Source of the DNA: a virus
DNA: 43,368 nt
Virus record (IMG/VR): IMGVR_UViG_3300035670_000442
Coordinates: 1-43,368 of that record
Reading direction: 5' to 3' (one strand)
Positions within the stretch are counted from its first letter, which is position 1. Each line of letters starts with the position of its first letter. Below, in pieces: positions 3,580 through 42,522 of the stretch. Below the pieces are notes generated by a model. The model searched no databases and had not been told where the DNA came from. It saw only the letters and a list, made by a program, of their open reading frames with translations. Position numbers and translations under genes: made by a program.

Positions 3580-3608
3580 AGTATGGACTGGTTGACCGGC
3601 CAGGTCAA
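3580..3608 (-). promoter_or_regulatory. promoter of the polymerase operon
   Basis: Leftward TTGACC (3608-3603), 17-bp spacer holding GGTCAACC, then CATACT (3585-3580). It overlaps the 3' end of the PP-loop gene and fires into the polymerase gene. Confidence 0.65.
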
Positions 3609-4378
3609 CCCAGGGAACAGGTTATACATCCTGACGTATCTAAGGCTTCGGTCTCACTGTCAGAAGCTCCTGGTTCTAACCACTCTTCCCGGTATTCCCG
3701 TAAAGTGAGATACCTAATAGTACCACCATTGGTCTTCCTTAAGAAAGGTCTAGTTCCTGGCAACTCTCTATGTAACTTTTCTTGTTTTTCCTCAAACATC
3801 TTGTATGTCTCTGGGGAGGATTGCCAGAGCTGCCTATAGTGTGCTAGACCCGCTTTACCACAAAAACCACCACAGTTGTTATGCTGGAGCCCCCAATCAT
3901 ACAGCCTCGGTCTGGAGATACCTGATCTGGCTAAAACTTCATCTGCGTACTGACGGGTGTCTATGTAGTCTTCTGCGAGTGGAGCTACTAGTGGTATTGA
4001 AAAGTGTTTTCTAGCCCTTTCTAGGCGATCTTGCTCATCATAAGAGAACTCGCAAACAACTACATCATATTGGGGGTTTTCTTTAATAAACCTATGCGTT
4101 GGCTCTCTTTTTAACACTCTACTACATGGGTCTATACGGGTGTTCACCAGGTATTTCTCTTTATAGAATACATCCCATATGTTAAGACCCTGGTCTAATG
4201 TGATTAACCCATAACCCAGATAGCGCTGGGTCTCTTTTAAGAACCTGTAAAGATCAGGATCTTCTGATCTTGTATCTGTGAATAGTAGAGTGACATCCTT
4301 TTCGCCTTTCTGCTTTAGCAGGCTGGCTGCTAAAAAACTACCCATTCCGCCAGAATAAAGAACTAAAAACTTTGTCAT
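3605..4378 (-). CDS. PP-loop (adenine nucleotide alpha-hydrolase fold) ATPase
   Basis: 257 aa. SGGMGSF at residues 9-15 is the PP-loop that binds ATP in PAPS reductases, tRNA thiolases, QueC and DndC. Cysteines cluster at NNCGGFCGKAG in the middle and CITC at the C-terminus, which could bind metal. The middle of the protein resembles phage 'PAPS reductase-like' proteins. The reaction is not predictable: nucleotide or DNA base modification, sulfur transfer and tRNA editing are all possible. The gene is clearly more AT-rich than its neighbours and lacks their CCTGG/CCCGGG-rich codon usage, suggesting recent acquisition. The ribosome site at ATG 4378 is weak; it follows the nuclease gene by 3 nt and is probably cotranscribed with it. 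Confidence 0.8.
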   Translation of the reverse strand: MTKFLVLYSGGMGSFLAASLLKQKGEKDVTLLFTDTRSEDPDLYRFLKETQRYLGYGLITLDQGLNIWDVFYKEKYLVNTRIDPCSRVLKREPTHRFIKENPQYDVVVCEFSYDEQDRLERARKHFSIPLVAPLAEDYIDTRQYADEVLARSGISRPRLYDWGLQHNNCGGFCGKAGLAHYRQLWQSSPETYKMFEEKQEKLHRELPGTRPFLRKTNGGTIRYLTLREYREEWLEPGASDSETEALDTSGCITCSLG

Positions 4379-5610: not shown

Positions 5611-7374
5611 CTATGGGATGGCCCTGATGATCGACTGGATATTGCCCATGGTCTCCCTGAGGATCTCCCCTGGTTTGGAGTCCTCTAGGATGCCCTGGTA
5701 GTGGTCTACCAACCCAGGGATACTCCGGCGTTCCTGTGACCACTGGGGTTGATAGTGGGATGATCTCTGGGGATACCCGAAACCCTTGGAGGACTTGAGT
5801 TCACCGATGATGATCCCAAAGGCTTTCTCGATGGACTTAACAGACTTCATCTGCCCAAGCTCATGTAGCTTAGGCCTCAGGTAGGACAGGCAGTCCGGGC
5901 TAAGGTGCTCTAGTAGAACCCCACTGAACTCCCTAGGGACTTCCCGCCGGTGTACCTGTACGGTCACCAGGGCCAACAGGAGATCCGGAGAAAAGTCCAT
6001 GCGACCGTAGCGATCCAAGAGCTCCTGGCGATCCCTGGGTTTCTCTTCGGCGATCGACATGGCGACCAAGTGGGCACAGGCAGCCGGTAACTCATCGGCG
6101 TGTTTTAGGGACACGTCGATCCTGAAGTTCTCCCGGTTACCCTTGATGATACCCTCCAGCTTACTGGAGTCTATCCCGGCTATCTGTGAGCCCTCCAGGG
6201 TGACCCCAGCGGCGTCCAGGAAGCGGTCTAGGGAACAACGGAACAACCACATGGCCAGGAGGATAGGATCACCCAGTCGGTTCCAATAGGGTAAGATCCG
6301 GTAGTCCTGATCGGATCCCCAACGTTCCTGGAGTTCCCAGGAGTTATAAGTATCCAGCTGGTTCAGTCGGGACAGCATCCCGGAGTCCATCCCTATGTAG
6401 TGGGAGTAGTCTGATAGGTTGGTAGCCCCTAAGACCACCGTCACGGACTCCACTGTGTCCGCGTTTTCTCCCTTTTCCTCTACCTTGACCTCTCCATTGG
6501 AGGTAACCATTTTGAGCCTGGGATCGTGGAACAACCGGCGTTGAAAGTCACCCGTGAGGTCGTCGATCATGGCCATATCAGACAGGGCGATCGGTCGCCA
6601 CCCAAACTGATTCAGGTTGGTGTTAATCTGGGTATGGGTATACCCAAGATTGTCCATGGCTTTCTGGAGGTAGCCCAGAAAGGTCGACTTACCCATACCA
6701 GCCTCCTGACCCACCATAATCCCATAGGATCTAAAGGTATGGATCAGTTCACCCTCTAGGGTTATCCCCTTACTTGGGCCAGCCATGATACGCCCCAGGA
6801 TCAGCATAAGCTGGTCAGCCTCAGCGTCAGGAAATAGGGTCAGTAGATCCCTGGCATCTATCCGCCGGACTTCCTCGGGAAACCAATGGACGGGTGGACA
6901 ATATTTGAACGCCCCAGGTAGACCGGTCAACGTCCGGGGTGTCGCTACCGTTCTCTTGATACCGTTGATTACCACTCGGGTCTTGGCCCTGGGGTCACCT
7001 AGGCGATCCTTGAAGTCTAGCAAGATACCTCCGATCACCCGGCGTGACGCCTTGGAATCTGTGGCGTTCCCTAGGTTGTACAGGGTGTTGTCTACGAAGC
7101 CAATGAACGCTGACCGGTCTAAGGGGTCACGGTGGTCTAGGGCCTTCCAACGGTACCAACCAGGATCAGGAGTTAGACCCGGGTAGACCTGTGAATCCTT
7201 GGTGTAGACCGTGTAGCCGCACCATGGGTCACCTGAGGGTACCATGATGTAGCCAAGGGTCTTAGCCTTGGCCTCCAGGGTCTCCAGGATCTCCGATACG
7301 GCAACTACCCCGAACTCGGTATCATCACGGGTATCTGTGGTTTCTCTGTGCATATCAGTACCGTATTTGTTCAT
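5611..7374 (-). CDS. SF3/D5-type replicative helicase (ATPase)
   Basis: 587 aa from ATG 7374. Walker A GQEAGMGKST (222-231), Walker B MIDD (269-272) and a sensor-like VVLGATN (about 313-319) match superfamily 3 helicases such as phage/plasmid D5-like proteins. TSNGEVKVEEKG between them matches the usual SF3 segment before motif C. The N-terminal 190 residues show no primase motif I can recognise, so priming is unexplained. A GTG two codons upstream (7380) is possible, but GAGG is better spaced for ATG 7374. A terminator lies just upstream (7389-7413), so expression probably needs read-through. Confidence 0.85.
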   Translation of the reverse strand: MNKYGTDMHRETTDTRDDTEFGVVAVSEILETLEAKAKTLGYIMVPSGDPWCGYTVYTKDSQVYPGLTPDPGWYRWKALDHRDPLDRSAFIGFVDNTLYNLGNATDSKASRRVIGGILLDFKDRLGDPRAKTRVVINGIKRTVATPRTLTGLPGAFKYCPPVHWFPEEVRRIDARDLLTLFPDAEADQLMLILGRIMAGPSKGITLEGELIHTFRSYGIMVGQEAGMGKSTFLGYLQKAMDNLGYTHTQINTNLNQFGWRPIALSDMAMIDDLTGDFQRRLFHDPRLKMVTSNGEVKVEEKGENADTVESVTVVLGATNLSDYSHYIGMDSGMLSRLNQLDTYNSWELQERWGSDQDYRILPYWNRLGDPILLAMWLFRCSLDRFLDAAGVTLEGSQIAGIDSSKLEGIIKGNRENFRIDVSLKHADELPAACAHLVAMSIAEEKPRDRQELLDRYGRMDFSPDLLLALVTVQVHRREVPREFSGVLLEHLSPDCLSYLRPKLHELGQMKSVKSIEKAFGIIIGELKSSKGFGYPQRSSHYQPQWSQERRSIPGLVDHYQGILEDSKPGEILRETMGNIQSIIRAIP

Positions 7375-7388
7375 GGGCACCTCGGGAA

Positions 7389-7413
7389 TAAAAAACCCCG
7401 GGGTTTCCGGGGT
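7389..7413 (-). terminator. intrinsic terminator upstream of the helicase gene
   Basis: Read leftward, ACCCCGG (7413-7407) pairs with CCGGGGT (7401-7395), followed by six T (7395-7390). It ends the unit that carries the 262-aa gene and sits 15 nt before the helicase start, so helicase expression would depend on read-through or antitermination. Confidence 0.85.
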
Positions 7414-7424
7414 CTGTGAACTTA

Positions 7425-7443
7425 AGCTATCCTCGGGATAGCT
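7425..7443. repeat. hairpin at the 3' end of the 262-aa gene
   Basis: AGCTATCC-TCG-GGATAGCT, an 8-bp stem overlapping the stop codon at 7442. No T-run of its own. It may protect the mRNA end or act with the adjacent terminator. Confidence 0.6.
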
Positions 7444-8230
7444 AGAAGGTAAACACGGGTAACTTGGATTCAGCCCGGGTAGTAAAGACCACTGGGATGA
7501 TAGGGTAACCCTGGGCTGATGTCTCAGTGGATTCCTTGACCTCTAGGTCTGCCGGTTCATCAGGGGTAATGACCGGGTTACGGGCTAACTTACGGTTAAT
7601 AGCCGTGTTGGCCTTAAACCAACCATGGCCCTCGATCTCGATCTTAAACTTGGCCTTTGACTCACCCTTGAAACTATTGTCCTCGTATCCGGTAACCTTG
7701 TAATCCCCAGGCTCCAGAGTGCTAAGGCTAGCCGCCGGAGTAAAGGTCTCTGACAGCAGCTTGGCCAGCTCTGGATAACCTTTCTTGAGGGCCCGCTTGA
7801 CCTCAGACAACCCAGCTTTTTCCTGACCTTCCTCTGGCTTTTTAAGGGCCAGAGAGAACTGGGGATACTGGTAGGTGATACCCGTGAGGTCTGACAAGTC
7901 GAACTCGATGACCACTTGCTTACGGTCTCCCTCAGACTCTTCGGGCTTAACCTTGAGGTACTCCAGGGGATACAGTCCACGGCCCCAGCACAGGCAAGGG
8001 ATGCCCTCTTTATTATTGGCAACATAGGGACTGTAGACCATAGGGCCAGAGCGTCCCTGGGTGACCTTAAAGGTGTAACCGGTTTCCTCAAAAGGAACGC
8101 CGATAGCTTCAGCTACCGCCTGGATGTCCCCTAGGAACTCAGCCATGACCGGGTGGTCATTTGGAATCAGTGTGGTCTCTTGGGTGTACTCAGCGTTTTC
8201 TAGGAGAGTTTGCAGCTTTAGGTTTAGCAT
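7442..8230 (-). CDS. hypothetical protein, possible ssDNA-binding/replication accessory
   Basis: 262 aa, no family recognised. It is hydrophilic and beta-rich in the C-terminal half (GDYKVTGYEDNSFKGE, KFKIEIEG), with charged loops and an end in LPVFTF. Its place between nuclease, exonuclease, methyltransferase and helicase genes fits a single-strand DNA-binding or replication accessory protein, but it lacks the acidic aromatic tail usual for T7 gp2.5 or SSB, so this is inference from context. AAAGGA precedes ATG 8230. It is the fourth gene of the unit started at 8598-8627 and is followed by an intrinsic terminator, suggesting high, separate expression. Confidence 0.7.
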   Translation of the reverse strand: MLNLKLQTLLENAEYTQETTLIPNDHPVMAEFLGDIQAVAEAIGVPFEETGYTFKVTQGRSGPMVYSPYVANNKEGIPCLCWGRGLYPLEYLKVKPEESEGDRKQVVIEFDLSDLTGITYQYPQFSLALKKPEEGQEKAGLSEVKRALKKGYPELAKLLSETFTPAASLSTLEPGDYKVTGYEDNSFKGESKAKFKIEIEGHGWFKANTAINRKLARNPVITPDEPADLEVKESTETSAQGYPIIPVVFTTRAESKLPVFTF

Positions 8231-10340: not shown

Positions 10341-10370
10341 ATGGTAGCACGGGTTAACCGGGCAGGTCAA
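10341..10370 (-). promoter_or_regulatory. promoter of exonuclease-methyltransferase unit
   Basis: Leftward TTGACC (10370-10365), spacer with CCCGGTTAACCCG, -10 TACCAT (10346-10341). It overlaps the end of the 99-aa gene. Confidence 0.6.
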
Positions 10371-10653
10371 CCGACAAAGGTATCACCCTGATCTCCACAG
10401 ATTTACCAGGGTCAGTAAGGGATGCCCGGGCTTCCAGGTCTTCCCATACTGCCCTCATTTCTTTTAGTACATCCTTACCCGTTCCCGGGTGAAACTTGAC
10501 TACTTCCTCAGTTCCTTTACCTCCGATGGCCACAGTCTCGGAGAACCCAGTATGGACACAGAGGTCATAGAGTTCATTGAGCCTCATGGCCCGGGATACA
10601 GGGTCTAAGCCCATTTCCCGGAGTGTTGCTAGTTGTTGCTGGGGTGTAGCCAT
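10354..10653 (-). CDS. hypothetical protein, 99 aa
   Basis: Starts MATPQQQLATLREMGLDP; mostly helical with a charged C-terminal helix (KEMRAVWEDLEARA). No family recognised; the layout is reminiscent of small helical DNA-binding or terminase-small-like proteins, but that is not supported by any motif. The ribosome site is weak. It lies downstream of the HTH gene and is probably in the same transcript. Confidence 0.6.
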   Translation of the reverse strand: MATPQQQLATLREMGLDPVSRAMRLNELYDLCVHTGFSETVAIGGKGTEEVVKFHPGTGKDVLKEMRAVWEDLEARASLTDPGKSVEIRVIPLSVDLPG

Positions 10654-10701: not shown

Positions 10702-11145
10702 TCAGGACTTCCCCAGACCCATACCGCGCTCATAGGCTGCCTTTTCGGCTTGGCGTTCCAAGGCTGACTTAAGGGCACCACGCTCAGCCCCACGCTGAAT
10801 AGCCGCCTTGATCTCATGGTCACTTAGGGTGGCTTGGTTGACCTCCATGGTCTCCTGGGCGTTCAGGGCCAGATCGACATATTGATCCACAGACCCAAGG
10901 TTGTCCCGGGTGGCCAGGGACACTTCTTCTACCCGGGAGATCTGGGCGATCGCCCCGTAGTGTTCCAGCGGGTCTACGATCTCTGCCTCTACTTCCTCCG
11001 GCGTCACCAGGGCCTCCAGGGCCTTTCGTACTTCCTTAGTGACTCCCTGGTCAGTGGGTAGGCCTTTGGTCTGTAGCAGGCGGTAAGCGGTAGACCGAGA
11101 GATCCCGTGTTCTTGACAAAAGCTGTAAATGCTTTGGTATTCCAT
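10702..11145 (-). CDS. HTH DNA-binding protein next to a repeat cluster
   Basis: 147 aa. Residues 2-26 (YSFCQEHGISRSTAYRLLQT) form a clear helix-turn-helix; the remainder is acidic then a long charged helix (IKAAIQRGAERGALKSALER), probably for oligomerisation. TAGGAG precedes ATG 11145. Directly upstream lie about 15 copies of GTTTCA/TGAAAC (11158-11380), the obvious candidate binding sites. Such a pairing is seen in iteron replication initiators, plasmid partition adaptors and autorepressors. The FtsK-like gene lies just beyond. Confidence 0.75.
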   Translation of the reverse strand: MEYQSIYSFCQEHGISRSTAYRLLQTKGLPTDQGVTKEVRKALEALVTPEEVEAEIVDPLEHYGAIAQISRVEEVSLATRDNLGSVDQYVDLALNAQETMEVNQATLSDHEIKAAIQRGAERGALKSALERQAEKAAYERGMGLGKS

Positions 11146-11157
11146 ATTTTGCTCCTA

Positions 11158-11380
11158 GGCGTTTCATAGGCGTTTCACGGTTGAAACGTTGATATACAAG
11201 GCTTTGGGCACCCTGGGCGTTTCACAGATCCCTGAAACCCTTACGCATCAACGTTTCAAGGGCGTTTCAGGGTGAAACGTTGGTATATAAGGGTTTCAGC
11301 GGTTTAGGCGTTTCACAAGGCGTTTCATGAAACGTTTCACCCGTTTCAGCCCTTATATACCAACGTTTCAAGGGCGTTCC
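11158..11380. repeat. iteron-like cluster of GTTTCA/TGAAAC motifs
   Basis: About fifteen copies of GTTTCA, often as GGCGTTTCA, in both orientations. A 21-bp arm at 11273-11293 is exactly inverted at 11350-11370, each arm joining TGAAACGTT to an AT-rich GGTATATAAGG; a degenerate third arm lies at 11182-11202. It is non-coding, lies between the promoter at 11387-11416 and the HTH gene, and could be a replication origin, a centromere-like site or an operator array. Confidence 0.9.
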
Positions 11381-11386
11381 AGGATC

Positions 11387-11416
11387 AGTATAGCCTGGGT
11401 ATACCTGGGGCGTCAA
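11387..11416 (-). promoter_or_regulatory. promoter reading through the iteron-like cluster
   Basis: Leftward TTGACG (11416-11411), spacer with CCCAGGTATACCCAGG, -10 TATACT (11392-11387). The transcript would have a leader of about 235 nt containing all the repeats before the HTH gene. Confidence 0.7.
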
Positions 11417-12828
11417 CCTGGGCTCCTAGGGATACCCGCTGGCCTACCCTGGGCGTCCCAGAGAGCCTGGATGATCCCATAGATCTGCTTTCCTAAGGGA
11501 TACTGGCGACCAGTGTACCCCATGGTGGTCTTGATGGTAGCCGACGGGTTCACCCCTGTACTTAGATCAAAATATACAGCCTGGTAGTGCTGGGCTACCC
11601 CTTGATTTAGTTCCGGAACCTCCTGGAACTCGCCTGGAACTTCCTTGGAACTCGCCTGGAACTTCTGAAAAGTTCCCACGGAGTTCCAAGGGGTTCCAGG
11701 TTGGTTCCCGGGTGGTTCCGGGGCTGTATCCCTTACGGGGTGGTCGGTTCCGCCTTTTGGGGTACTTTTGGCCTCCAGGGGCCTTTTTTGGGGGCTTTTT
11801 GGGGCCTTGGGAACTTGGGGGATCTGTGCGGGTAGATCCTCTACCATACACTGACGTTTACCAGGTTCGATCTGATACCCGTGCTTGTCAGCCCAGGCCT
11901 TCCCTAGGCTACCCAGGCGGATAAAGGTGCAGTTCTCCCTAAGGCTTCCCTCACCCTCGATCCCTAGGGCCTTGACCTCAGCACCCTGAACCAGCATGAT
12001 CAGCCGGATACCAACCTTGCGGGCCTCGCGTAGGATTACCTTGATACAAGCTGACACCCCAGGGAGTTTCCCGTAGGCGTTGAACTCATCCAGGATCACG
12101 TTGACCACGGGGAACCGGTCTGTTCCTAGGTCTAGGTCACCCTGCGACCTCCTGGAGTACCGGTAGTCCATCTCAGCCACTAGGGAAGCCAGAAGCTGGC
12201 AGACAGTACAGTCCTGACCGTTCAGGATCTCCCCAAAGGGCACTGGAGGTTCTCCAGTCTCCACTAGTTCTCTCTTGACTTCCCGGGTCTCATAGGGTTC
12301 AGCGGAAACCCCAAAGTTACGCCCAGTATTGATCACTAGATCGGCCCCAGGGTAATCCCCGGGTTCATAGTGGGGTGCTGATACCAGGGTAGTCCCTCCG
12401 AGTAGCCCGGTCATCCACTCAGCCAGGGTAGACTTACCGGTACCCGTTGGCCCCAGGAGCATCATATGGGCATACTTGTCTCTATGGGTCTCAAGGTCAG
12501 ACCAGTCAAACCAGGGAACCTCTGGGGTATCCTGGGCGGCCTCCGGTAGGGCCTTGGTAGGCCCTGGGTTCATCAAGGACTGTAAGTGTAGATTCTGGTA
12601 GGCGTTATCCTCTATGTCTCGGGTATCCTGGAGCCTCATGGCGGCTTCCCGGGATATGCTGGACAGTACCAAGGACGATCCAGCCAGCCCTAGGGACACT
12701 GTAGCAGCCACCCGTTTTACCCAGGGGTCTAAGGACAGCGTAAAGGCCAGGGACAGCATAGATACACCGGTGACCACCCCAGAGGCTACCAGGGTGGCGT
12801 AACGGATCTTTAGTAGCTGGTAACTCAT
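11413..12828 (-). CDS. membrane-anchored FtsK/VirD4-like DNA translocase ATPase
   Basis: 471 aa from ATG 12828 (GAGGTGG upstream; ATGA overlap with the previous gene; an in-frame GTG nine nt upstream is less likely). Two transmembrane helices in residues 8-58, Walker A GPTGTGKST (126-134), Walker B VNVILDEFNAYG (about 240-252), then a Pro-rich linker and a small C-terminal domain (about 420-471, GVNPSATIKTTMGYTGRQ) that looks like a winged-helix DNA reader. This order resembles FtsK and conjugative coupling proteins that pump DNA at a membrane. It is odd in a lytic-looking phage and may serve segregation of a plasmid-like state, DNA entry or exclusion. Confidence 0.8.
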   Translation of the reverse strand: MSYQLLKIRYATLVASGVVTGVSMLSLAFTLSLDPWVKRVAATVSLGLAGSSLVLSSISREAAMRLQDTRDIEDNAYQNLHLQSLMNPGPTKALPEAAQDTPEVPWFDWSDLETHRDKYAHMMLLGPTGTGKSTLAEWMTGLLGGTTLVSAPHYEPGDYPGADLVINTGRNFGVSAEPYETREVKRELVETGEPPVPFGEILNGQDCTVCQLLASLVAEMDYRYSRRSQGDLDLGTDRFPVVNVILDEFNAYGKLPGVSACIKVILREARKVGIRLIMLVQGAEVKALGIEGEGSLRENCTFIRLGSLGKAWADKHGYQIEPGKRQCMVEDLPAQIPQVPKAPKSPQKRPLEAKSTPKGGTDHPVRDTAPEPPGNQPGTPWNSVGTFQKFQASSKEVPGEFQEVPELNQGVAQHYQAVYFDLSTGVNPSATIKTTMGYTGRQYPLGKQIYGIIQALWDAQGRPAGIPRSPG

Positions 12829-13202
12829 AGTGGCCACCTCATAGCACCCAGGGACAGCCCCAGGAGCGTCATAGAGACCCGGTAGGCAATCACAGGTAAC
12901 ACCGTGGGCTTTCTGAGGAACACCAGGGTACAGATAGCCCCAGCGGTCAATAGGGTTAGCCCGACAGCCACCCGGACAGCCAGAAACGGAAAAAACAACA
13001 GGTCGCCCAGCAACACTGAAGCGGCGATCTGGGTGACCACGTCATTCAGGACACCCAAGGGGTCACTGGGGAGATACAGGTGAGACTCCCAGGCCCTTAG
13101 GAAGTTCTCCGGGCGATCGGTGACCCGGTTGGTATCCAGGGTGATAGGGACATCTTGACCCCATAGACCCCTGACGATCACGGTAGGTTTAGAGTCAGCC
13201 AT
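12825..13202 (-). CDS. membrane protein, 125 aa
   Basis: A hydrophilic N-terminus (about 45 residues), then about three hydrophobic segments (VTQIAASVLLGDLLFFPFLA, VAVGLTLLTAGAICTLVFL, VIAYRVSMTLLGLSLG). Function unknown. Its stop overlaps the FtsK-like start (ATGA), suggesting the two act together at the membrane. Confidence 0.75.
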   Translation of the reverse strand: MADSKPTVIVRGLWGQDVPITLDTNRVTDRPENFLRAWESHLYLPSDPLGVLNDVVTQIAASVLLGDLLFFPFLAVRVAVGLTLLTAGAICTLVFLRKPTVLPVIAYRVSMTLLGLSLGAMRWPL

Positions 13203-13536
13203 GGTAACCCCTGCGTTTAAGGTAATCGGTCAGCCACCGGCGCATACGGATGACCTGGGATGCCAGGGACAAAGTGATCTCCCTGAGATCATCCGGGTGG
13301 GCTTGGCGGATGTTGCGTCCCAGGGCCTCCAGGTGTAACTGGTCTTCCAGAGGCATAGGTTTTTCTTCAGGTAGGCCTAGCGGTTCCATAGCTGGCCTCC
13401 CAGAACCGTGCGGACGACCGGAGGGCTGTTTAGGCCCAGCCGGAACGCCCAGGAATGACTCAGGGTTAACAGGGGCACCCAGATCAGTAAAGGCCATAGT
13501 TTCCAAAATGGGATCATTGCTTCCTCCGGCGTTCAT
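13195..13536 (-). CDS. hypothetical protein, about 113 aa
   Basis: Gly/Pro-rich N-terminal half, then a helical C-terminus (PLEDQLHLEALGRNI, EITLSLASQVIRMRRWL). The start is uncertain: ATG 13536 lies 23 nt inside the upstream gene with a weak ribosome site, and ATG 13497 is an alternative. The end overlaps the membrane protein gene by 8 nt. Function unknown; it belongs to the FtsK-like operon. Confidence 0.6.
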   Translation of the reverse strand: MNAGGSNDPILETMAFTDLGAPVNPESFLGVPAGPKQPSGRPHGSGRPAMEPLGLPEEKPMPLEDQLHLEALGRNIRQAHPDDLREITLSLASQVIRMRRWLTDYLKRRGYHG

Positions 13537-13654
13537 AGTCGTCAATAGCTTCCTCAACCGCGTCCTGGGTAGGACAGGTGAAGACCGTTTGACCCTTGCG
13601 GGCAGTCCAGGAACCCGAGCGGTTCTCGGTCAAAATGTAACCTCGGTATTTCAT
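13514..13654 (-). CDS. small hypothetical protein, 46 aa
   Basis: Starts MKYRGYILTENRSGSWTARK and ends in a charged helix DDYERRRKQ. Start overlaps the stop of the 75-aa gene (ATGA). Resembles other short phage proteins with a strand pair and one helix; no function recognised. Confidence 0.6.
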   Translation of the reverse strand: MKYRGYILTENRSGSWTARKGQTVFTCPTQDAVEEAIDDYERRRKQ

Positions 13655-13878
13655 AAGAGCACCACCAGTGAGAGTAGACCAGCCAAGGCAACGCCAGCGA
13701 TAAACCCGGACAGCCAGGAAAACTCCTGGTCTTTTAGGCGATCATCAGCCAGGCAGTAATGGATCTTCCCAAGCTTCCCATGGATGTCCCTAAGGATCGG
13801 GTAGGTGACCTGATCAGGCTCCAGTCGTCCCAAGGACTCTGAGATGTTGGCCAGGGTGTCTAGGTAGTAGCGATACAT
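13651..13878 (-). CDS. small tail-anchored membrane protein, 75 aa
   Basis: Soluble helical N-terminus and one C-terminal transmembrane helix (FIAGVALAGLLSLVVLL), with the bulk therefore likely in the cytoplasm. TAGGAGG precedes ATG 13878. First gene of the leftward FtsK-like operon, started by the promoter at 13898-13926. Confidence 0.75.
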   Translation of the reverse strand: MYRYYLDTLANISESLGRLEPDQVTYPILRDIHGKLGKIHYCLADDRLKDQEFSWLSGFIAGVALAGLLSLVVLL

Positions 13879-13897: not shown

Positions 13898-13938
13898 AGG
13901 GTAACCCGGTTGACCCGCTAGGTCAACTTAGGTACAAT
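13898..13938. promoter_or_regulatory. interleaved divergent promoters sharing one palindrome
   Basis: Rightward: TTGACC 13910-13915, 17 bp, TACAAT 13933-13938. Leftward: TTGACC 13926-13921, 17 bp, TACCCT 13903-13898. The two -35 boxes face each other inside the palindrome GGTTGACC-CGCTA-GGTCAACT, so RNA polymerase can occupy only one direction at a time. Confidence 0.75.
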
Positions 13939-13948
13939 AGTTTTTTAT

Positions 13949-13963
13949 CTATGGTCACCATGA
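13949..13963. promoter_or_regulatory. operator-like palindrome over the regulator start codon
   Basis: The ATGGTCACCAT core (13951-13961) is identical to the upstream palindromes of other promoters. Here it lies just after the predicted start site of the rightward promoter, and its first ATG is the start codon of the HTH gene. A protein bound here would block its own transcription. Confidence 0.6.
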
Positions 13964-14466
13964 TTGACATTGACAGCCTGTATTGCCGATGGCTCCAAGG
14001 GCGATCCCTGAGAACCATAGCGGCCTCGGTAGGGATCTCCCATAACACTCTACACACCCGGTTTCAAAAGACCTATGGGCAACAGGCCACCAGCCTAACT
14101 GGGGCATCCTTGGCCCGGTCTATGGTGGCTGATAACCCGGACTGCCCAGAGACCCTGGAGTATGCCTTAGACCTCATCAAGTCCGGTCAGTTCTCCAAGG
14201 TCAAACACAGAAGCCGCCATAGCCTGTTACAGCTCGGGGTGTATCAGAACATCCGGGACTCCAGGTTAATGGATACGATCGCAGTAGCCCCAGAGGAAGA
14301 CCCTGAGATCTCCCTAGGATTCCCTATGTTCCAATGGGTATTGGATGCCCTGGTGGGCATTCTGGGTGATAGCCTACTGTGGGCTATAGGCTACCGTAAC
14401 ACACAGGTAGACCTGGGATGCCCACCTGTGTCCCTGGGTGACCTAGGGATTATTGGGTTTTCCTAG
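13951..14466 (+). CDS. HTH transcription regulator, probable operator-binding protein
   Basis: 171 aa. Residues about 14-45 form a helix-turn-helix (WLQGRSLRTIAASVGISHNT) like recombinase/response-regulator type HTHs; the rest is unrecognised. The predicted transcription start (about 13945) is only a few bases before ATG 13951, so the mRNA is nearly leaderless; ATG 13960 is an alternative. It is one of few rightward genes in the left arm. The ATGGTNACCAT palindrome over its start and upstream of other promoters suggests it is an autorepressed activator of those promoters; this is inference. The 3' end overlaps a convergent gene by 24 nt. Confidence 0.75.
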   Translation: MVTMIDIDSLYCRWLQGRSLRTIAASVGISHNTLHTRFQKTYGQQATSLTGASLARSMVADNPDCPETLEYALDLIKSGQFSKVKHRSRHSLLQLGVYQNIRDSRLMDTIAVAPEEDPEISLGFPMFQWVLDALVGILGDSLLWAIGYRNTQVDLGCPPVSLGDLGIIGFS

Positions 14467-14984: not shown

Positions 14985-15047
14985 AATATAAACAGGTAAA
15001 CCCACTGGGTCAACCGGGTTGTTCTCTATGGTCACCATAGGTATACC
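14985..15047. promoter_or_regulatory. divergent promoters sharing the CTATGGTCACCATAG palindrome
   Basis: Leftward: TTGACC 15013-15008, 17 bp with GGGTTTACC, TATATT 14990-14985. Rightward: TTGTTC 15019-15024, 17 bp, TATACC 15042-15047. The palindrome at 15026-15040 is centred 20 bp upstream of the leftward -35 but fills the rightward spacer, so one bound protein could activate leftward and repress rightward transcription. Confidence 0.7.
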
Positions 15048-15074
15048 TCTATGGTTGACCGGTTAGGGTAAACC

Positions 15075-24400: not shown

Positions 24401-24946
24401 ATGACCGTTAACACCTATGGGGCTCTGTTTAGCCCCACCAAAATCACCCCAGCTATCCGTAGGGCTGCCGGTAAGGCCAGGGCATACGGAGAATACCGTA
24501 TCAAGGCCAGGACACCCATCCGGACGGGGCTGCTACATAGATCCTGGCAGGTGGATTTAGAGGGCTATGGGGTCAGGGTACGCAACAATACGCCCTATGC
24601 CATTTATAACGAGATGGGTACCCGGTACATGAGGGCTAGACCCATGGTCGCCCCAACCATACCAGAGATGCAAGCGGTATTCAAGACCGAGATCGGTCGG
24701 GAAGTCGGTAGATCCCTGGGTAACAAGATCCTAGGTGAACTCCGGTCTATCACGGCCCCAGGAGGCTACCGAGGCCTGACCGAGGGACGCCGATATATCA
24801 AGGGCAACCGAGGGTTCAGAACTAACCCGGATGTCATGCTGGAGTATACTGAACTGGCCAAGTTAAACCGGAGGTTCGGTAAAGCATTCCCAGCATTCCC
24901 GGGTCAGCTCCAGAGTCCTAAGGCCAACAGGGTAGGTGCCCGATGA
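24401..24946 (+). CDS. HK97 gp10-like head-tail/neck protein
   Basis: 181 aa, basic. [15 protein letters not shown] and [17 protein letters not shown] match the HK97 gp10 / tail-completion family (TGxLrxSw ... YaxxvE.Gt ... .ArPfl). These proteins sit at the neck. Overlaps the fibre gene by ATGA. Confidence 0.8.
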
Positions 24947-26565
24947 TTAACCGCGTTTCTAGACTACCAGGGCCTCAGGGGCCTCAGGGGCCTCAGGGTG
25001 ACCCAGGGCCTCAAGGGCCTCAGGGTCTCCAGGGTCTCCAGGGTGACCCAGGGCCTCAGGGTCTCCAGGGTGACCCAGGGCCTCAGGGTCTCCAGGGTCT
25101 CCAGGGTCTCCAGGGTGACCCAGGGCCTCAGGGTCTCCAGGGTCTCCAGGGTCTCCAGGGTGACCCAGGGCCTCAAGGGCCTCAAGGGCCTCAGGGTCTC
25201 CAGGGTCTCCAGGGTCTCCAGGGTGACCCAGGGCCTCAGGGTCTCCAGGGTCTCCAGGGTCTCCAGGGTGACCCAGGGCCTCAAGGGCCTCAAGGGCCTC
25301 AGGGTCTCCAGGGTCTCCAGGGTCTCCAGGGTGACCCAGGGCCTCAGGGTCTCCAGGGTGACCCGGGGCCTCAAGGGCCTCAAGGGCCTCAGGGTCTCCA
25401 GGGTCTCCAGGGTGACCCGGGTACTACTGAGTTCTCAGGTCTTACTGACTTGGTTGCTACTGCTCTAACCAGCGGCAACAGCGGTAAGTCCATGGCGCTT
25501 ACGTGGGATAACACAGGGGAGACGCTGACGCTGACTCCTAGTCCGGTGTTTGACACTGTGACTATTGGGCAAAGTGTTGATGCTTCTGGAGTAAATACTG
25601 GTAAAGCTTTCCTCCCTAACTTTTACGCTAACACCAACAATGCACTTAGATTAGCCGGAGAACGGCTTCAGCACGGTAGCCGTATTCATAGCCTTACTGC
25701 GTCTACAGCGACTAACGCAGACAACGCTACAGGCTGGGATTACGATAACTTTGCTACCATCACGAACGGTCAGACTATAGAGTTTGATTTTACTGGGATT
25801 AGCTCAAATGGTTACACGTATTTAGGGGCGATAGACCTGATACTGGTGACAATGAGGTCTACGGGTGCTGTGTTGCCCTCGTCTATCTTTGTAGAGTACC
25901 GCAATAGCTCGAATGTTTGGGTGGCTATCGGTACAATGACCACGCCAGTTTACTCCAGCGGATCGGGTGCTCTTTATGTGCTGCAAAACCCCATCGGGCA
26001 GCAAACTTTTATCAGAGGGATGCGGTTTACCTTTACAGGTACAGGCACAATGTTGTGCGTTGCTACGGAATGGCACCCATCGAGAGCTTCAGCATCCGAT
26101 CCTGCAGAGTACATCCGCACATCCTCTCCCTCTCGCTTAAACGTTTACGCTCCATCCATTTGGTTGCGTGGTCAATCTTCATTCCCTCGAATCGAGATTG
26201 ATAGGGACGGGGGCTTTATCAGGGTAAATGCCGGGGGAGGGACACCAGGAATATCAACATTAGGTGGTGGGTTTTTGGAGGCAAACGCAACGACTCCGTC
26301 AACCTCAACAACTACTGGCGCTATACGTACGGCAGGCGGCATTGGATCCCAAGGTGCTGTTTACGCTGGTGGTGAAGTACAAGGTACTGAGTTTCGCATC
26401 GGTGGTACCAAGGTACTAGGAGCTAGGCAAACCGGATTTACCTTAGGCAGCGGTACTGAGGCCAAGGGTGCCATAGATGACACTACTATCACCCTTCAAG
26501 AGCTGGCCCAGCAGGTTATAGCCCTCAAGGCGGCCTTGGCAGCACACGGCATTATAGGGAGTTAA
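24943..26565 (+). CDS. collagen-like fibre protein
   Basis: 540 aa. Residues 10-160 are about fifty G-X-Y triplets (mostly GPQ, GLQ, GDP), which should form a trimeric collagen stalk. Residues about 165-500 are a beta-rich adhesin-like part, and the last 30 residues are helical ([17 protein letters not shown]), possibly a trimerisation end. The base composition of about 25440-26400 differs from the rest (more AT, fewer CCTGG words), so the head of the fibre looks imported. Likely a receptor-binding or neck fibre. Lengths of the repeat tract can vary in frame by slippage. Confidence 0.85.
24970..25422 (+). repeat. collagen-coding 9-bp repeat array
   Basis: Arrays of GGTCTCCAG and GGCCTCAAG-type units joined by GGTGACCCAGGG. 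Units are multiples of 9 bp and larger blocks recur exactly, so gain or loss of units keeps frame. All three forward frames and the reverse strand stay open across parts of it, a side effect of the repeat. Confidence 0.95.
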
Positions 26566-41271: not shown

Positions 41272-42522
41272 ATGGATTTCCCCTTACATAAGGGACAACT
41301 GAAGGTATATCAGGATGGACACCGGTTTGTAACCCTGGTGGCCGGTAGACGCTTTGGAAAGACCAGGCTTGCCTTAACCCGGATCATCACAACCACCCTA
41401 GGGTTCCCTAGGGAGCCTGATCCGGTGTCCCCTGAGATCACCCTGGTTACCATGCCTACTCTACAGATGGCCAGGGGTATCATATGGACGCCGCTGGTCA
41501 ACCTCTTTGAGACCCCTGAGTTAGCCCCGGCGGTCAAGCGTATCGACCGGAGTAACTTCCGTATAGACCTATACGGAAAGCCCAGTATTCAGGTAGCTGG
41601 GGCCAACGACAAAAACGGTGATGGCCTTAGGGGAAAGCGGATCTGGTTTTTCCTGGGGGATGAGTGGCAAGATGTCAAGGCTACTGTGCTGGATGAAGTC
41701 ATCATCCCGGCCATGGCTGATACCCCCGGTTCAACCGCATTGTTCACGGGGACGCCCAAGGGACGCCAGAACCACTATTACCGGTTGTTCCAGAGGGCCG
41801 AAGAAGACCCCGAGCAATATTCAAGTTACCTGATGCCTACATGGGACAACCCCTTAATCCCTCGGGACTTTTTGGCCAGACAGAAACTACTGTTACCGCC
41901 CAGGGTCTATGATCAGGAGTTCGGGGCAAACTTCGTAAACTTCCCGGGCCAGTTTTACTCAGAGCTGACTGAGGACAACCTAGTAGACCGGTTACCTGAC
42001 GGGTTCACCCAGACGATCCTCGGGGTAGACTTTGGGGATGTCCATCCTGCTATAGTGGCCTTAGGTCTCCGGGGTAGCACCTGGTATTACCTGGAGGGCT
42101 GGCAGGGTAGTACAGGCCAGCCGATCCCAGAGCCTACCTTTCACCATCACATTAGGCGGATGGCTGCCCGCTGGAATCCCAGCGGTGTCTACTGTGACCC
42201 TAGCCGCCCATCAGCCATCCTGACCATCAGATCCCTAGGCCTACCCATGGCGATCGCAGGGTACAACAGGATCCTTGAGGGTATCACCCAGGTACACAGC
42301 CTGATCTACCAAAGACGCCTGAAGTTCCCAACGGAAAACCCTCAGGGTCTCCATGAGGGTTCAATCATTGGCCGGGATGCCTATGAACTTGCTTTATCTT
42401 ACCATGCCCGCACGGTTGACGGGGTGGCTACGGATAAGGTAGAGGATGGACAGGACGACCATATCCTAGATGCTATCCGTTACGCCCTGGCATTACCCGG
42501 TGGGTTACCAGGGGTAGAATGA
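41272..42522 (+). CDS. terminase large subunit
   Basis: 416 aa. Walker A AGRRFGKT (24-31), Walker B WFFLGDEWQD (about 125-134), coupling segment ALFTGTPKGRQNHYY, and a nuclease domain with GVDFGDVHPAI (about 248-258), CDPSRPSAI and DDHILDAIRYAL. It pumps and cuts DNA at the portal. Leader TTAGGGAAAA before ATG 41272. Confidence 0.95.
   Translation: MDFPLHKGQLKVYQDGHRFVTLVAGRRFGKTRLALTRIITTTLGFPREPDPVSPEITLVTMPTLQMARGIIWTPLVNLFETPELAPAVKRIDRSNFRIDLYGKPSIQVAGANDKNGDGLRGKRIWFFLGDEWQDVKATVLDEVIIPAMADTPGSTALFTGTPKGRQNHYYRLFQRAEEDPEQYSSYLMPTWDNPLIPRDFLARQKLLLPPRVYDQEFGANFVNFPGQFYSELTEDNLVDRLPDGFTQTILGVDFGDVHPAIVALGLRGSTWYYLEGWQGSTGQPIPEPTFHHHIRRMAARWNPSGVYCDPSRPSAILTIRSLGLPMAIAGYNRILEGITQVHSLIYQRRLKFPTENPQGLHEGSIIGRDAYELALSYHARTVDGVATDKVEDGQDDHILDAIRYALALPGGLPGVE

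Follow-up and report, generated by a model that had tools for sequence, protein, structure and literature searches.

A plasmid-type DNA translocase with an adjoining repeat array in a tailed cyanophage: a candidate self-recognising translocation module

Our analysis of the virus record IMGVR_UViG_3300035670_000442 (43,368 bp, without terminal repeats and possibly incomplete; the whole record is called the window here) points to a tailed cyanophage that carries a plasmid-type module for self-recognising translocation of double-stranded DNA, a reading to which we assign a probability of roughly 0.55. The module consists of an operon for an FtsK/TcpA-like ATPase with a predicted membrane anchor and its small partner proteins, with a dense array of GTTTCA/TGAAAC repeats just beyond the ATPase gene. 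Our results suggest that the array marks the DNA that the pump recognises as its own and perhaps moves between neighbouring cells. On the best reading of these sequences, the phage DNA would be moved between the cells of a filament or segregated as an episome; sequence does not separate cell-to-cell movement from segregation at division.

The translocase and its relatives

The central gene (11413–12837, minus strand) encodes a protein of 474 aa, which comprises an N-terminal hydrophobic segment, a RecA-type motor (residues ~105–350) with an intact Walker A motif, a low-complexity linker, and a C-terminal putative DNA reader of three predicted helices. Hydropathy supports the N-terminal segment as a membrane anchor. 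Relatives were found by tblastn on small cyanobacterial plasmids of Annamia (E 1e-34), Pseudanabaena (6e-22), and Nostoc (pDU1, 5e-10), and further on those of Allocoleopsis, Tolypothrix, and Calothrix, while none was found by tblastn in 50,697 phage records. The plasmids that carry this family possess no virion genes. With a family profile, members were recovered from 20 out of 386 cyanobacterial genomes (E 1e-8); a search of 291 genomes of one order recovered them from 33 (E 1e-15). A preliminary description of this DNA had called the region plasmid-like, and this distribution upholds it: homologues confined to virion-related contexts are the opposite of what was found.

Profile comparison with the PDB matched FtsK (E 1e-9) and HerA. 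After a first AlphaFold2 model with a pLDDT of 44, a second, built from five sequences, gave a fair motor, with a pLDDT of ~65–83 over most of residues 110–310, and was poor in all other parts. The best structural matches of the motor were TcpA, the coupling protein of pCW3 (Z 15.0 over 192 residues, 3.0 Å), and FtsK (Z 13.3). These results show the ATPase to be a member of a TcpA/FtsK-like family that cyanobacterial plasmids carry.

Repeat arrays in the window and across the family

The GTTTCA/TGAAAC array (11161–11370) holds 15 copies in both orientations, 11 GTTTCA and 4 TGAAAC, within 210 bp (E ~1e-22 or lower). The expected number is 0.08 per 272 bp, the maximum in 5000 Markov sequences was 2, and the whole 43-kb record contains 26. 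The array lies 43 bp beyond the translocase stop, between the stop of the leftward ATPase gene and the start of a leftward helix-turn-helix (HTH) gene; the preliminary description had also placed it between an HTH and a translocase gene. Its perfect inverted 21-bp arm is likewise confirmed, with the left arm TGAAACGTTGGTATATAAGGG at 11273–11293 (plus strand) and a perfect inverted copy at 11350–11370 (minus strand). Two further imperfect copies, at 11181–11201 (plus) and 11238–11258 (minus), bring the 21-bp units to four, alternating in orientation, with AT-rich TATATA segments inside them. No match to the unit was found by exact search of viral contigs. A second array, of the GGAAC/GTTCC type and previously overlooked, occupies 11609–11815 in the 3′ part (the linker codons) of the ATPase gene; its copies fall on both strands and in all frames, and it includes an inverted repeat at 11613–11721.

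We then scanned the translocase family for dense hexamer arrays, beginning with a discovery set of loci and continuing with 36 newly fetched loci plus the phage contigs L102 and L103. The discovery loci had arrays at the 3′ end of the translocase gene, with a motif specific to each element. Those of GAGACA, ATCCTG, TCATGA, GACTAA, and CGTCTA were located ~370–420 bp past the stop, beyond a conserved gene for a 121-aa protein, and others were intragenic. In the new loci, 13 out of 33 arrays lay no more than 700 bp from the stop, a zone making up 8.2% of the sequence (p 9.6e-7); one of the 13, L114, duplicates L008 of the discovery set. A block test over all loci found an array on or just after the translocase 3′ end in 31 of 65 (48%), against 59 of 851 control blocks (7%; p 9e-17). 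The result was kept in the new set without L113 and L114 (14/34 versus 27/388, p 2.6e-7) and with one locus per 60% cluster (17/41 versus 39/579, p 4.8e-9). This shows that, across the family, dense arrays of short repeats with element-specific motifs cluster strongly where the translocase gene ends, either at its 3′ end or inside it.

Most intragenic arrays had copies on both strands and in several frames, so protein repeats were rejected as their source in most cases; L058 and L131 had copies on one strand only. A mechanical test of C-terminal class against preference for GAA-containing motifs gave p 0.06, and no such association is claimed.

Because its layout resembles that of TraB and clt in Streptomyces, the array of the window is more likely a candidate clt-like recognition site of the translocase than an iteron origin. 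The preliminary description had called the repeats iteron-type and had considered a replication origin, and the array could indeed be an iteron-type origin, or a centromere or operator, bound by the HTH protein (147 aa, 10702–11145, minus strand; weak HTH matches), with the closeness of the translocase being incidental. The array stands directly upstream of the HTH gene, as in autoregulated partition systems, and the TATATA segments of the 21-bp units would also suit such a site. But in the family as a whole the arrays accompany the translocase gene, in which they frequently lie, and show no such tie to HTH or Rep genes; in L013 and L014, the genome elements closest to the query, the array has no HTH gene beside it. 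Searches of plasmids, phages, viral contigs, and 291 cyanobacterial genomes gave no clear homologue of the HTH protein itself; of the HTH/ATPase pair proposed for a search on cyanobacterial plasmids, the ATPase alone had clear relatives there. Among the window genes scanned, none was recognised as Rep, ParA, or ParM, which leaves the array flanked by a translocase gene and an orphan HTH gene with no adjacent Rep initiator, and GC skew, which had been suggested as a test, showed no clear switch at the module. We therefore consider an origin or operator of this kind quite unlikely, while the HTH protein is possibly a regulator that binds the array.

The domain that may read the array

Covariation was tested in a nine-member clade that possesses the 121-aa gene. 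C-terminal identity was 67–99% between members that share a motif, 54–70% between those with related motifs, and 26–44% for other pairs, while the motors of the same nine were mostly 77–95% identical (62–65% with L071). In a Mantel test, motif distance followed the C-terminus (rho 0.65, p 0.001) more than the motor (rho 0.30, p 0.056). Since motif and C-terminal domain diverge together in this clade while the motor stays alike, these comparisons support the C-terminal domain of the ATPase as the putative reader of the array.

An IS1-type zinc ribbon was found at the C-terminus of 2 out of 24 aligned members. C-termini of the zinc-ribbon type replace those of the HTH type in the translocases of L058, L125, L130, L131, and L006, a pointer to exchange of DNA-reading domains.

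The operon and its membrane partners

Four leftward genes make up the operon. Their products are, in order, a one-span protein of 75 aa, a soluble protein of 120 aa, a two-span protein of 125 aa, and the ATPase. The gene of the two-span membrane protein (12825–13202, minus strand) overlaps the translocase start. Its matches to partners beside plasmid translocases were weak but repeated (blastp 0.001 and 0.004, hhalign 4e-4, phmmer 1e-4 and 0.001). In 37 of the 67 loci, the adjacent upstream gene codes for a protein with at least two spans, compared with 3.9% of background open reading frames (ORFs). This shows the translocase to have a small two-span membrane partner encoded just upstream.

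The other two proteins match their counterparts by position and type only. The 120-aa protein (13195–13557, minus strand; start codon uncertain) has no recognised homology and takes the slot of the 111–162-aa soluble proteins of the Annamia plasmid (L006), the genome locus L037, and the Leptolyngbya phage Lbo402-yong5 (yong5). The 75-aa protein (13651–13878, minus strand), first in the string, takes that of the 70–131-aa one-span proteins of L006, L037, L044, and yong5. The operon order is common to the Annamia plasmid, L037, and yong5. Thus the small membrane proteins expected from the preliminary description number two, with one and two spans, and the product of 13195–13557 is soluble. Another HTH protein (window 13951–14466) is divergent from the operon and is kept near the module in L103 (7810–8325) and L102 (7696–8133).

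The phage genome and its sisters

The virion genes of the window (terminase, portal, capsid, sheath, and baseplate) are those of a contractile-tailed phage, and the best-covering relatives of its gamma-type DNA polymerase are cyanophages, including Microcystis phage Mic1. No match to tyrosine or serine recombinases (PF00589, PF00239) was found in this possibly incomplete record, in agreement with the earlier statement that the phage lacks an integrase. No plasmid relative of the phage primase was found at E 0.01. Neither a type IV secretion system (T4SS) partner nor a relaxase was recognised in the ~40 ORFs scanned; the Pfam family T4SS-DNA_transf matched exactly at its cut-off.

Portal searches recovered yong5 (31.6%), L102 (38%), and L103 (34%), in which the module is divergent, decayed, or intact. 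In L103 the same ATPase (E 1e-47) is accompanied by a two-span partner, and no integrase was recognised. A divergent translocase homologue (hhalign E 5e-7) and an integrase are present in yong5. L102, which has an integrase and keeps its virion genes and an intact two-span partner, carries a shortened homologue (6599–7459) without the Walker A motif and the C-terminal part, which suggests that this ATPase is decayed or has been repurposed. Intact modules may go together with the absence of an integrase, a pattern worth testing that cannot be established from four genomes. The terminase relatives L049–L052 are without the module.

These genomes also bear on whether the module serves virion functions such as DNA packaging or ejection. 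The contractile-tailed genome is in line with this, as is the position of the L103 ATPase gene, ~1.2 kb upstream of the terminase gene; but the window phage has its own terminase (41272–42522), the family occurs on plasmids without virion genes, and L102 keeps its virion genes while its ATPase has lost both Walker A and the C-terminal reader. Such a function is very improbable.

Several other features of these genomes were observed. Across the whole 21.5 kb of L103, ~20 TGTGATAACA copies are dispersed in either orientation and recall stoperators or shared promoters; they were not counted as an array. The window record contains 24 GCGATCGC sites. Dyads of the GGTTGACC/GGTCAACC type, possibly a phage-wide operator set, occur at or near operon starts of the window (3590–3610, 10353–10373, 13908–13936, 15008–15061, 16147, 16610, 17037, and 17747), and one of them overlaps a promoter-like TTGACC-17-TACAAT (13910). 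A phosphoadenosine phosphosulfate reductase-like gene (3605–4378, E 8e-28) is a possible auxiliary metabolic gene, and a collagen-like tail fibre gene (24943–26565) has a strong internal array (ACCCTG, n=24) that is a protein-level repeat. The GC and tetranucleotide composition of the module region are within the range of the remaining record, and an artefact of acquired DNA was rejected. A nucleotide search of phages with the window gave no match, and viral contigs searched with the polymerase, the single ATPase protein, the yong5 ATPase, and the HTH protein yielded no usable close relatives.

Proposed role of the module

The hosts of the named plasmid relatives of the translocase are all filamentous, including Annamia. 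Annamia is the only true-filament genus in Chroococcales (PMC10751749). Since the module has the parts of TraB/clt, some of them putative, in the same places and these hosts are filamentous, we favour array-directed pumping across the septal membrane. The ATPase N-terminus and the small proteins would anchor a hexamer in the membrane. In the manner of TraB at clt, the hexamer would attach to the array of the replicon that encodes it and would drive this array-bearing duplex across the septal membrane. In the phage, the intracellular genome might be spread or segregated along the cyanobacterial filament without lysis, a route that would suit a phage with no recognised integrase. The phage could possibly persist as an episome.

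Several observations weigh against this reading. At the threshold used, 34 of the 65 family members lack an array, among them those of pDU1, Tolypothrix, and Annamia, and L103 likewise lacks a local one. The pLDDT of the modelled C-terminal domain is below 50. The 121-aa protein also tracks the motif (rho 0.54), and its gene lies between translocase and array, so linkage may explain part of the covariation. The product of the HTH gene immediately downstream of the array could bind it as well. The association with filaments is statistically weak: set against a plasmid Rep as control, which occurs in unicellular genera too, the comparison gave 0/10 versus 14/44 records (p ~0.035 by hand). The open-access papers searched yielded no experimental work, on DNA transfer or otherwise, for any member of this cyanobacterial family.

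Alternatively, the translocase may act at the division septum like FtsK, with the array as a loading or polarity site for sorting or resolving phage episome or plasmid copies into daughter cells. The motor does match FtsK, and several plasmids with the ATPase (pDU1, Tolypothrix, Calothrix, and pMIC7113.06) encode a short site-specific integrase, some also ParM or ParA, which places the module among maintenance genes. However, recombinases of the tyrosine and serine types are absent from the window phage, and the plasmids that encode ParM have the translocase and array as well; in L013, parM is preceded by a separate array (6107–6210). FtsK polarity sites, moreover, are dispersed over the chromosome and do not form one dense cluster. 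Segregation in place of transfer is rather unlikely in our view.

Under the favoured reading of a self-recognising translocation module, a wider proposal can be made tentatively, as a possibility short of probable: filamentous cyanobacteria may host a widespread and undescribed class of TraB-like modules for self-transfer, each with a translocase whose target is a repeat array specific to the element and located on or beside the translocase gene, and some tailed phages may have taken up such a module for lysis- and virion-free passage between trichome cells. If this is true, cyanobacterial plasmids, including pDU1, the source of common Nostoc shuttle vectors, would gain a candidate self-transfer system of the Streptomyces kind, and there would be a testable account of plasmid and phage spread through a multicellular filament. 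An exchangeable reader domain matched to an array that travels with the gene would be a natural code, and a case for studying the coevolution of DNA-binding specificity and target. Use of the module by a phage would add cell-to-cell passage to the known phage lifestyles.

Comparison with known systems

FtsK/SpoIIIE with KOPS shares the motor fold and the principle of sequence-directed loading; KOPS are chromosome-dispersed, whereas here a single dense array is on the translocase gene and the record has no Xer recombinase. TcpA of the Clostridium plasmid pCW3, the best structural match, works with the T4SS-like Tcp apparatus, while none was recognised in the window. Like phage-plasmids, the window combines virion genes with plasmid-type genes and has no recognised integrase; unlike them, it has no recognised plasmid Rep or partition genes, and its episomal state is hypothetical. 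Lbo402-yong5 has a related portal and the same gene order (HTH, small proteins, one-span, soluble, two-span, translocase), but its translocase is divergent, no dense array was found, and an integrase is present.

The closest parallel is in Streptomyces plasmids, where a single FtsK-like TraB reads short clt repeats through a C-terminal winged helix and Spd membrane proteins spread the plasmid across septa (PMC5365140, PMC4170104). In pWTY27, clt takes in 16 bp at the 3′ end of traA and the 159 bp that follow, and TraA binds its 7-bp repeats (PMC3583192). The system described here differs in its cyanobacterial and phage carriers, in a motor fold nearest TcpA, in repeats that are often wholly intragenic, in an exchangeable reader (winged HTH types or an IS1-type zinc ribbon), and in partners recognised by hydropathy, which are at most candidate counterparts of Spd. 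With the Streptomyces systems (pSVH1, pIJ101, and pWTY27) it shares an FtsK-type motor (here with a predicted membrane anchor and a putative C-terminal DNA reader), small membrane proteins, the lack of an evident T4SS, filamentous multicellular hosts, and an element-specific short-repeat array at or over the translocase 3′ end, represented in the window by one array 43 bp past the stop and one inside the gene.

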